Assembly (NCBI GenBank): GCA_000155695.1
Contig: DS990592.1
Coordinates: forward strand, 4,167,820-4,231,819
From: Verrucomicrobiia bacterium DG1235
GTDB lineage: Bacteria; Verrucomicrobiota; Verrucomicrobiia; Opitutales; Opitutaceae
Direction of reading: 5' to 3'
DNA length: 64,000 nucleotides
Shown here: in pieces, positions 38,825 through 42,869 of the stretch
Position numbering within the stretch: position 1 is the stretch's first letter
Layout of the letters: each line of letters begins with the position of its first letter
Notes under the pieces: generated by a model
What the model was told of the DNA's origin: nothing
The model's input: only the letters and a program-made list of their open reading frames with translations
Databases searched by the model: none
Program-made: the position numbers and the translations under genes

Positions 38825-38884
38825 GTCTCGATTGGCATTGATAGGGCTTGATCGCTTCTGGGCGCGTTTCGTGGCATGGGGGCT

Positions 38885-40153
38885 ATGGTTGAAATTCCCT
38901 ATCTTATAGAAAATCGGTTTAAGGCAGCCTTGCTAAAGGCCTTGGTTCCCGCTTATCAGCGCAGTCACTACTTGCGGTGGTTGCGTTTCTTTTTGGAGTA
39001 TTGCGAGCAGTATCAATTGGACGCCGTGGAAGAGAGCAGCCTAGAAGCGTTCGGGAGAATGCTTTTGAAAAAGGGGCAGGGGCCGTTTCAGCGTAGGCAA
39101 GCGGAGAGGGCGGTGCGTTTGTATCTTGAATGTTTGGATACGGAGGAAGAGCTCGAGCTTTGGGATCGCGAAGAGGCTGAGGCGATAGGGGCCGAGTGGG
39201 ATGTTGTGGTTCGGAAGCTCTGCGAATGTATCCAGACGCGTCAGTACTCGACGAATACGTTGAGGACATATGTCATGTGGGTGCGGCGGTTTCAGGATTA
39301 CTTGAAAGGAAAGGCGGTCGTTGCGGTGGATGCTGAGAATGCGGCGAGCTTTTTCACCTATCTCGCCTGCGAGAAGCGAGTGGTGGCTTCGACTCAAAAT
39401 CAGGCGTTTAGCGCTTTGCTGTTTTTGTTTCGGCACGTATTGAAGCGAAGGTTCGAGGGGTTCGAGGGGGTTGTTCGGGCGAGGCGTACGAAGTATATTC
39501 CTGTGGTCTTATCGCGGGCGGAGGTGGATGCAGTTTTCGAGCAGTTGACGCATCCTTTCGATCTTGCCACGAGGCTGATGTACGGATGCGGCTTGAGGTT
39601 GTTTGAGGTGGTGAATGTGCGCGTAGGGAGCCTGAATTTCGGGGCGGGGATTCTGACTGTGCATGACGGGAAGGGGCGAAAGGATAGGACGGTGCCGCTT
39701 CCGCGCTGCTTGATGCAGGATCTCGAGCGTCAGGTAAGGAGAGTTCGGATACAATTGGGAAGGGATATCGAAGGAGGATTCGACGGGGTTTTCATGCCGG
39801 GTTCGATGGACAGAAAGGGCGGAAGTTTGGCGAAGGAGCTACCGTGGCAGTGGCTATTTCCCTATCGGAAGCTGACCTTGGTGAGAGGAACGGAAGAGCG
39901 GCGGCGCTACCATGCGCATGAAAAGAAGCTTGGTGCCGCTATTCGGGAGGCGGCGCGGCGGGTGGGGCTAGCGAAGCGGGTGACCGCGCACACGTTTCGG
40001 CATAGTTTCGCGAGTCACTTGCTGGAGGCGAACTACGATATTCGGACCATCCAGGAGCTGCTTGGTCACAGTTCTTTGGAAACGACGATGATCTATACGC
40101 ATACGGTGCGCAGCCTAACGATCAAGGAGGCTGAGAGTCCGTTGGATTTCTAG
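38885..40153 (+). CDS. Integron-type tyrosine recombinase with N-terminal extension
   Basis: A 422-residue tyrosine recombinase. The catalytic set is complete: Arg in GCGLRLFEV (about 235), Lys in [32 protein letters not shown] (about 370), LLGH and the nucleophile in TMIYTH (about 402). Between patches II and III is an extra segment with ELPWQWLFP, and the protein ends ESPLDF; both resemble IntI integrases. About 85 residues longer than a usual IntI at the N-terminus, it appears to have two successive core-binding-like helical domains (about 8-80 and 105-195). ATG 38876 is also possible; GGGGG precedes ATG 38885. No attC or attI site was recognised nearby. Confidence 0.88.
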
Positions 40154-40164
40154 TCTTTTTCTCC

Positions 40165-40626
40165 CTAGATTTTAAGAGTCATAAAAATACTGTTTGGATC
40201 GTCGCGGTAGTTGGCGAAAGGGGAGCATTCCGTGAATCCGAATTTTAGATACAGTTTTCTGGCAGGCTCGAAGAAGGGCATTGAGCCCGTTTCTAGGCTG
40301 AGGCGATCGAGTTCGTTTTTGCGAGCTTGGTCGATGATGTGTTGGAGGAGTGTGGACGCGATGCCTTGACCACGCCGGCGGGGGTCGGAGCGCATGGATT
40401 TGATTTCGCCGTGGCGGGAGTCGAGCGTTTTGAGAGCTCCGCATCCGATGAGCTCGCCTTGGTCCCATGCAGTATAGAAGGTGACATCCGGTTGGCGGAG
40501 GGAGTCGAGGTCGAGGGCGTGCTTGCTCTCGGGTGGGGAGACGGAGCGCATGTCTTCCAGGTGTTCCTCGAGGAACGTGGCGATCGCCGGGTGCGAAAGG
40601 TCGTCGAGTTGGATGAGCATAGGCAT
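40165..40626 (-). CDS. GNAT-family N-acetyltransferase
   Basis: A 153-residue acetyl-CoA-dependent acyltransferase. The pyrophosphate-binding loop RRRGQGIASTLLQHI is near residue 83, preceded by GEIKSMRS and followed by SLETGSMPFFEPARKLYLKFGF. The pattern is close to small amino-group acetyltransferases of the PanZ/YjdJ-like type. It converges on the integrase with only 11 bases between stops. Acetyltransferases are common integron cassettes, but no attC flanks this one. The target is unknown. Confidence 0.88.
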   Translation of the reverse strand: MPMLIQLDDLSHPAIATFLEEHLEDMRSVSPPESKHALDLDSLRQPDVTFYTAWDQGELIGCGALKTLDSRHGEIKSMRSDPRRRGQGIASTLLQHIIDQARKNELDRLSLETGSMPFFEPARKLYLKFGFTECSPFANYRDDPNSIFMTLKI

Positions 40627-40712: not shown

Positions 40713-42869
40713 GTGATTGGGGTGAGCTGTTACTCTCTTTTCTTTCGGGGCGCGATTGTCGTTCGCGTGTGGCTATTGGTGTCGATGTGTATTTGTTTAG
40801 CTGGGTCATTTGGAGTGTATTCGACCTTCGGGGATACGAGCAAATTAAGCGAAGAGGAACGAGGTCGCGGACGTTTGGTGGAACTGCGAGCTGAGATCGC
40901 GCGGCACGACGATTTGTATTACCGGAAAGCGGCACCTGAAATTAGCGATGCAGATTATGATGCACTGAAACGCGAGCTTCATCGATTGGAGGAACTGTAT
41001 CCAGATTTACAGGATGGGTTGCTCATCGTGGATGAAATCGGGGATGATCGTTCGGGTGTGCGAGGGGAGTTTCGTCATTTTGCGCCGATGTTGAGTTTGG
41101 AGAAAGCGTACACTGAGGAAGCGTTGCTTTCCTTTTACGATCGAGTTTTGAGTCAGTTGACATTTGAGGAGCTGGATTGTTTGGTAGAGCCGAAGGTGGA
41201 TGGGATGGCGATTAGCGTCTTGTATGAACGGGGGGAGTTTGTCAGGGCGGTGTCGCGGGGGAATGGGCGGGTGGGAGAAGATGTTTCTGAAAATGTGTTG
41301 AGGATTGAGGGATTACCGCGTCGACTGGAGACGGAGTCACCACCTGAACGAGTGGAGTTGAGGGGCGAGGTTTATGTGAGCTTTGAGGGATTTCGACGCT
41401 TGAATGAAGCTCGGGTAGCGGCTGGTGAGGAGCCTTTTGCGCATCCGCGCAGTTTGGCTGCTGGTTCGTTGAAGCTTGACGATCCGGAGGTGGTTTCTGA
41501 ACGGTCGCTTTCTATCGTGTTTTTTGGATACGGAGCTTTCGAACCGGTGGAAGAGGCTCCGGAGACGCAGAGCGGTTTTTACGGGTTGGCTCAATCTTGG
41601 GGGATACCGGTTTTGGAGGAATTGAGAAAGACTCGCGGGACTGAGGCGTTGCTAGCTGCGGTTCGAGAAATGGAGGAGCGTCGAGTGTTGTATCCATTTC
41701 CTATGGACGGGGCGGTTGTGAAAATCGATCGGGCGGATGTTCAAAGGGAGTTAGGTTTAGGTACATCGGCTCCGCGTTGGGCGATGGCTTATAAGTTTGC
41801 CGAGAAGCGAGTGGAGACGCGTTTGTTGGGAATAAGGATTCAAGTCGGTCGGACTGGTCTGCTGACTCCGGTAGCGGAGTTGGAGGAGATAAGGCTTGGC
41901 GGAAGCTCTATTCGGCGGGCGAGCTTGCACAATGGTGGCGTGATAGAGCGGATGGATCTACGGATAGGCGATGTCGTCTATTTGGAGAGGGCGGGTGAAG
42001 TGATTCCGAACGTGGTGGGGGTGAATCTTGCGAAACGGAAGTCAAGTTCTACCAAATATGTTTTTCCAGATTTGTGCCCGTCGTGTGGATACGCTGCGGA
42101 ACTAGATGAGGGAAGAGTGGAGAGGTATTGCCGGAGCTCGACTTGTCCTGCTCAGGCGCAGAGAAAAATCGAGCACTTCGCTTCTAGTCGGGCAGTTGGA
42201 ATAGAGGGCATCGGGCCAGCGAAAATTGCCGATTTGATGGATGCTGGACTGGTGGAGACTGTAGCGGACCTGTATTTGCTTGAGGTTCCGGATTTGGTGC
42301 AAGCGGGGGTGGGGTCAGAAGCGGTTGCCCGAAAATTGGTGAGTGAGATTTCAGGGAGTAGGGCAGCTTCTTTGTGGAGGGTATTGTTTGGTCTCGGGAT
42401 TCCGGAAGTGGGGGTGTCGCGTTCGAAGAAGTTGGCTGCGGCCTACGGAGATTTGGCCGCATTTGCTCGGGCCAGCGCTTTGGATTTCTCTCCAGGTGGT
42501 AGGGCTGCGGAGGTCGGATTCGGTCCGGTAGCGAGGGAAGCGGTGCTTGCGTATTTGTCGCTTGACGAGAATCGAGAGCTGATTGGGAGGCTTGTTGAGT
42601 TAGGATTGGGGGCGCGTAGCGAAGTGATGGATACTAGAAGCGAAGTGGCAGGCACGATTTTTGTCTTTACAGGCGCGCTAGAGGGATTGAGCAGGAAAGA
42701 GGCGATGGCGTTGGTCGAGGCGGCGGGAGCGGAGACTCGTTCGGCGGTGAGTAGCGCTTGTGACTTTCTTGTGGTTGGGAAGGAGCCCGGCGCGAAATTG
42801 CAGAAGGCTCGGGAGTTGGGTGTGGAGGTGATCGGCTTGGAAAAGTTTCGGCGCCTGCTCGGACTGTGA
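40713..42869 (+). CDS. ligA: NAD-dependent DNA ligase with hydrophobic N-terminus
   Basis: Seals nicks using NAD+. The 718-residue product has domain Ia (ARHDDLYYRKAAPEISDADYD), the adenylated lysine in EPKVDGMAI (about 160), OB fold (about 375-455), a four-cysteine zinc finger (CPSCG...CRSSTCPAQ), helix-hairpin-helix repeats and a C-terminal BRCT domain (about 645-718). From the GTG at 40713 the first 35 residues are hydrophobic (VWLLVSMCICLAGSFGVY), resembling a signal or anchor and unusual for LigA. A GTG at 40815 would remove it and begin just before the conserved domain. The choice cannot be settled from sequence alone. Confidence 0.93.
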   Translation: MIGVSCYSLFFRGAIVVRVWLLVSMCICLAGSFGVYSTFGDTSKLSEEERGRGRLVELRAEIARHDDLYYRKAAPEISDADYDALKRELHRLEELYPDLQDGLLIVDEIGDDRSGVRGEFRHFAPMLSLEKAYTEEALLSFYDRVLSQLTFEELDCLVEPKVDGMAISVLYERGEFVRAVSRGNGRVGEDVSENVLRIEGLPRRLETESPPERVELRGEVYVSFEGFRRLNEARVAAGEEPFAHPRSLAAGSLKLDDPEVVSERSLSIVFFGYGAFEPVEEAPETQSGFYGLAQSWGIPVLEELRKTRGTEALLAAVREMEERRVLYPFPMDGAVVKIDRADVQRELGLGTSAPRWAMAYKFAEKRVETRLLGIRIQVGRTGLLTPVAELEEIRLGGSSIRRASLHNGGVIERMDLRIGDVVYLERAGEVIPNVVGVNLAKRKSSSTKYVFPDLCPSCGYAAELDEGRVERYCRSSTCPAQAQRKIEHFASSRAVGIEGIGPAKIADLMDAGLVETVADLYLLEVPDLVQAGVGSEAVARKLVSEISGSRAASLWRVLFGLGIPEVGVSRSKKLAAAYGDLAAFARASALDFSPGGRAAEVGFGPVAREAVLAYLSLDENRELIGRLVELGLGARSEVMDTRSEVAGTIFVFTGALEGLSRKEAMALVEAAGAETRSAVSSACDFLVVGKEPGAKLQKARELGVEVIGLEKFRRLLGL

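Follow-up and report, generated by a model that had tools for sequence, protein, structure and literature searches.

A second NAD+-dependent DNA ligase with a signal-peptide-like N-terminus, putatively exported, in Verrucomicrobiia bacterium DG1235 and its relatives

The window analysed here, a stretch of 64,000 nucleotides from Verrucomicrobiia bacterium DG1235, contains on its forward strand an open reading frame that starts with GTG and encodes 718 amino acids (Table 1; the end includes the stop codon). The original prediction described a hydrophobic segment ahead of a complete LigA at this locus, and this description was accurate: the hydrophobic residues read as it had quoted them, and both the domain content and curated LigA models confirmed the ligase. 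Two genes separate the ligase from an SMP-30-like gene, namely an integron-integrase-type recombinase at 38876-40153 (+) (TIGR02249, 322 bits against a cut-off of 265) and a GNAT acetyltransferase at 40165-40626 (-). At a related locus in the same genus (L005 in genome G019), exonuclease-like, SMP-30-like, ligase and reductase genes, identified by eye, occur without the recombinase and acetyltransferase. Because the gene order is otherwise the same, these two genes look to have been gained in the window or lost in L005.

Table 1. Coordinates of the ligase features in the window and of the short ligases found elsewhere in the phylum (the latter on their own loci)
Feature	Position	Strand	Basis or remark
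Second NAD+-dependent DNA ligase, putative exported form	40713..42869	+	ORF, Pfam, curated models, structure matches
TGTTACTCT, matching TGTTACCCC in L004, L005 and L006 (window's genus)	40728..40736	+	Upstream comparison; no general second-copy feature
Hydrophobic core of signal-peptide-like segment, residues 19-36 (VWLLVSMCICLAGSFGVY)	40767..40820	+	Hydropathy
In-frame GTG, codon 35, alternative start that would drop the segment	40815..40817	+	Sequence
Domain Ia (NAD+ recognition), residues 58-99	40884..41009	+	Pfam 26.5 bits, slightly below cut-off 27; Y, D, Y, D positions kept
Adenylation domain, residues 119-363; nucleotidyl lysine K161 at 41193-41195	41067..41801	+	Pfam, alignment
OB-fold domain, residues 368-445	41814..42047	+	Pfam
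Four-cysteine zinc finger (C455, C458, C473, C478)	42075..42146	+	Alignment
Helix-hairpin-helix region, residues 496-624	42198..42584	+	Pfam
BRCT domain, residues 647-708	42651..42836	+	Pfam
Short NAD+-type ligase L184	1990-3264	-	f49 or f56
Short NAD+-type ligase L185	2381-3640	+	f49 or f56
Short NAD+-type ligase L186	2298-3560	+	f49 or f56
Short NAD+-type ligase L187	1555-2856	+	f49 or f56
Short NAD+-type ligase L188	2401-3687	+	f49 or f56

The adenylation, OB-fold, helix-hairpin-helix and BRCT domains passed their Pfam cut-offs, with domain Ia marginally below its own. LigA models matched the protein with 613 bits (TIGR00575, cut-off 444) and 626 bits (PRK07956, cut-off 369), and the solved E. 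coli LigA (2owo) aligned with residues 54 to 717 at 1.4e-126. Solved LigA chains aligned only from residue 49-58 onward, so about 50 residues at the N-terminus of the window protein are extra. In alignment, the window protein retained its nucleotidyl lysine and all conserved residues of the active site and of domain Ia. At the position of E. coli LigA R208 the window protein has lysine, as do the housekeeping copies described below, and at H23 it has tyrosine. We followed a set of such positions across the 43 second copies defined below. Positions 113, 115, 117, 118, 173, 200, 285, 290 and 314 (E. coli LigA numbering) were invariant in all 43, as were the domain Ia positions 22, 32, 35 and 36; R277 and the full set of four zinc cysteines were each kept in 42 of 43, and position 208 was occupied by R or K. 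Judged from these residues, the window gene very probably encodes an active ligase.

In the assembly that contains the window, Pfam matched the NAD+-type adenylation domain at two places, the window gene and contig C6:2006389-2007132 (-). The ligase on C6 (L093) occupies a 671-residue frame in which an ATG gives MSKASDLKRIEQLRAEIRRHDELYYRN, with no N-terminal extension. Since an ordinary LigA is thus encoded elsewhere in the same genome, the essential cytoplasmic role would not require the window copy. The same assembly also holds an ATP-dependent ligase domain at C6:64696-65277 (-), within an 863-residue frame (L224) that is perhaps of the LigD type.

Ligase matches were present in at least 146 of the 150 genomes of the family, and 134 loci containing a ligase frame were gathered. 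To keep the extension out of the grouping, each protein was trimmed to begin with the conserved core. After dropping two duplicates (L001, L002) and L033, which apparently shares a contig with L081 of genome G141, the core-only tree comprised 131 rows from family genomes and one outlier. The outlier, L034, is distant in sequence, comes from another phylum and enters no count. In this tree 88 housekeeping-type rows formed one branch with a support of 100, and the other 43 were second copies, among them the window ligase, which clustered with L004, L005, L006 and L123 of its own genus. The same split had a support of 100/100 in another tree, built from 85 rows; with E. coli LigA as outgroup, this tree placed the second copies beside the family's own LigAs.

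Only after this grouping were the extensions scored, giving each row its most favourable start codon and calling a segment signal-like, by a hydropathy rule only, if its best 11-residue mean hydropathy was at least 1.8. Absence of the segment from relatives would have spoken against the original prediction, but relatives do have it: upstream of the core, the threshold was reached by 39 of the 43 second copies, the window included, against 0 of 84 housekeeping rows. Fisher's test gave p = 1.5e-28, a value that overstates significance because the rows are related by descent, although the separation is clean. The second copies below threshold (L040, L060, L090 and L125) each have a hydrophobic run by eye, although in L060 the 75 codons examined include no ATG, GTG or TTG. 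The BRCT region was absent from 18 of 43 second copies as opposed to 0 of 84 housekeeping rows, a loss that would fit freedom from a role in replication. Three rows inside the housekeeping clade (L120, L132 and L133), which the 84 do not include, have signals but no BRCT, and would represent either a separate origin or misplacement. Eight housekeeping LigA frames (L210, L211, L212, L214, L215, L218, L219 and L220) are 749-878 residues long where 670-690 is usual; this extra length, together with several of the frames matching the query in separate pieces, suggests an internal insertion.

These counts bear directly on where translation of the window gene begins. As the original prediction pointed out, the GTG at codon 35 is in frame, and starting there would remove the segment: with GTG 40713 as start, the highest mean hydropathy over 11 residues is 2.68, and with GTG 40815 it is 0.32. 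If the true start were GTG 40815 or later, the product would be a second cytoplasmic LigA and the hydrophobic codons an untranslated leader. Such a start would leave 17-20 residues before the core, near the 8-11 of the housekeeping copies, and the window copy has neither an ATG start nor a convincing start site upstream. Nevertheless, a segment of this kind stands ahead of the core in 39 of 43 second copies, in most cases following an ATG start, whereas the upstream frames of the 84 housekeeping rows, which serve as a natural control, never contain it. Owing to this recurrence in relatives, we regard the shorter cytoplasmic form as very unlikely, and take GTG 40713, GTG 40722 and GTG 40767 as the candidate starts of the longer protein.

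The way the extensions vary is also that of signal peptides, which usually diverge in sequence while keeping signal character. Between L119 and L126, 13 of 34 aligned extension residues were identical compared with 75 of 98 core residues. Differences between the extensions of close pairs were mostly amino-acid-changing, as in fast-evolving signal peptides, and lacked the third-position bias that would have demonstrated translation; the extensions drift apart yet remain signal-like (for example, MHSTLLRALGALVCCLFLATSVSAQ in L110 and MQLSLRRIVHLVVCALAFVVPASAQ in L126). In the window's genus, GTGnnCTGTTACCCC is common to L004, L005 and L006 and partly to the window, directly before the signal region, while the remaining upstream DNA is hardly alike. 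This element could be a piece of a promoter or operator, or a start region. A TGTTAC match was seen upstream at the level of the genus. An extended -10 element conserved ahead of second copies in general was rejected: TGnTAynnT was found upstream of 4 of 46 second copies and of 7 of 84 housekeeping ligases, and the looser TGYTAY upstream of 11 of 46 and 8 of 84, respectively.

In the window protein the hydrophobic core is preceded by the positive residues R12 and R18. Export through the Tat pathway was rejected, as a regular expression for the twin-arginine motif matched 0 of 45 N-termini. Alternatively, the segment might stay uncleaved and hold the ligase, as an anchor, to the outer face of the inner membrane. 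The window protein is without an ideal A-x-A cleavage site, its best candidates being AGS and SFG, and a lipobox-like regular expression matched 4 of 45 N-termini, which would give lipoproteins. Against such tethering, many relatives have A-x-A after the hydrophobic run, such as ASA in L126, ALA in L115 and SVSA in L110, and we find an anchor improbable. For the window protein, cleavage near residue 32-34, judged by small residues, is only a guess. The suspicion of an exported NAD+-dependent ligase nonetheless gained support at the sequence level, with the segment found in second-copy relatives and absent from this genome's housekeeping LigA (L001/L093). Export gains greatly in plausibility from the presence of two NAD+-type ligases in the genome, and we consider it highly probable for the window ligase.

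Second copies were present in at least 56 of the 150 family genomes, a lower bound that rests on the matches listed, with the copy in genome G056 (L209) truncated where its contig ends. This number includes ten copies added after the core-only tree (L199, L202-L208, L213 and L217), which are signal-like by eye, without the threshold. Nine of the ten were found with an alignment of 42 second copies and L199 was placed in the 85-row tree. One second copy (L142) was found in G251, a genome from another family of the same order. Among 145 genomes of the phylum, at least five, from families f49 and f56, have an NAD+-type ligase of about 400 residues that ends after the OB domain and has a signal-like start (hydropathy 2.4-3.0; Table 1). 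L187 is without the equivalents of E113 and R277, and L184 without that of D36, so the short forms need not all be active. In the 85-row tree these forms sat on a branch of 2.74 and E. coli LigB on a very long branch; consequently, we do not trust the position of either.

We considered whether neighbouring genes point to a function. A fixed gene partner of the second copies was rejected, as recurrent neighbours were lineage-specific: an MBL-fold protein in 10 genomes, DprA in 3, an Rrf2-type regulator-like cluster in 9, a GroEL-like protein in 6, and a ribonucleotide reductase in 4 genomes of the window's genus. Pfam confirmed all three DprA proteins and one of the MBL proteins; the other names were given by eye. 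The gene dprA serves natural transformation. In genus g41, dprA (PF02481) comes next after the ligase, at 51, 11 and -1 nucleotides, in three of the four genomes read, all of one lineage. ComEC was present in 54 of 56 carriers of a second copy versus 77 of the 94 other family genomes (p = 0.010, uncorrected for ancestry). It was missing from two carriers, G124 and G103, the latter 65% complete, and from 17 non-carriers, five of which belong to genus g38. ComEC is a weak marker, given that 10 of the 14 control genomes, E. coli among them, also have it. The window's genome has both ComEC and DprA, a ComEA-type HHH_3 domain within a 914-residue frame, and secretin matches below the PilQ cut-off.

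Among known enzymes, the nearest precedent for an exported accessory ligase is Lig E. PMC10799422 and PMC4220977 describe it as an ATP-dependent enzyme additional to LigA, with a leader predicted to take it to the periplasm, and a role in DNA uptake has been proposed for it. PMC10799422 also reports that Lig E knock-outs of N. gonorrhoeae make less biofilm. An exported ligase might accordingly keep extracellular DNA of the biofilm matrix joined instead of aiding DNA uptake, and the carriers share no fixed competence neighbour that would speak for uptake. The dprA gene adjoining the ligase in one genus and the co-occurrence with ComEC, on the other hand, lean weakly towards uptake, and we find the biofilm role rather unlikely.

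Overall, the best explanation is that the product of the window gene is an accessory NAD+-dependent ligase that leaves the cytoplasm across the inner membrane and acts in the periplasm or envelope, perhaps mending incoming or extracellular DNA. We consider this explanation probable as a whole, while the role with incoming or extracellular DNA, taken separately, stands at about even chances. The ligase would cross the inner membrane, most likely by Sec, after which the signal would be cleaved and the enzyme would fold outside. Its lysine would be charged there from NAD+, and nicks in double-stranded DNA would be sealed. By analogy with Lig E, the likeliest purpose would be to mend nicks either in extracellular DNA or in DNA that is crossing the periplasm and has yet to reach ComEC. 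On a broader reading, which strikes us as possible though short of probable, Verrucomicrobiota evolved periplasmic NAD+-dependent ligases more than once (the family's second LigA; L120, L132 and L133; L184-L188) that do Lig E's job in uptake; E. coli LigB would then be another exported ligase that has gone unrecognised, and NAD+ would be available for use outside the inner membrane. A conserved exported branch, if confirmed, would perform NAD+-driven DNA joining outside the inner membrane, Verrucomicrobiota would have a concrete gene for natural transformation or the upkeep of extracellular DNA, and the working place of E. coli LigB would deserve a second look.

The usual view of NAD+-dependent ligases is that they serve replication in the cytoplasm. 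With housekeeping LigA (TIGR00575 / PRK07956) the window protein shares the full domain set, the catalytic residues, the zinc cysteines and scores above the curated cut-offs. It differs in having about 40 more N-terminal residues, with the signal-like segment, and in belonging to a separate tree branch of second copies, many of whose members have lost BRCT. Whereas LigA would be the sole such ligase of a genome, here the other copy takes the housekeeping place by sequence. E. coli LigB (YicF) is likewise a second NAD+-type ligase beside LigA with a signal-like start; on the same scale, the N-terminus of the K-12 protein (L135, 3489-5171 (-)) has a hydropathy of 2.75. Nevertheless, the window protein scores 156.9 bits on the LigB model, below the cut-off of 498. 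LigB has no BRCT, keeps just one of the zinc cysteines and has other residues at E113, R208, R277 and K290, while the window protein has BRCT and all four cysteines. By word search, the main text of the LigB function paper PMC5507437 contains zero words starting with signal, periplasm, secret, locali or membrane, and so does not discuss location. Among the titles and abstract openings of the best-ranked open-access literature, we found Lig E papers and unrelated ones, with no report of an exported NAD+-dependent ligase. Thus, within the open-access literature searched, an exported NAD+-dependent version of LigA descent appears to be undescribed.

The closest working analogue of the window ligase is Lig E. 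Both are accessory to LigA, both have a predicted export signal (by the hydropathy rule and family-wide in the case of the window ligase), and both are without constant neighbours; Lig E is, according to PMC8455567, essentially proteobacterial and lacking in synteny. In contrast to Lig E, a minimal ATP-type enzyme, the window ligase is of the NAD+ type and of LigA descent, with domain Ia and full domains; a Pfam scan of the window protein found NAD+-type domains and neither of the Lig E domains PF01068 and PF14743. The short forms L184-L188 combine the architecture of Lig E with the NAD+ type. By this analogy, we think that the window gene may do the job of Lig E with NAD+.
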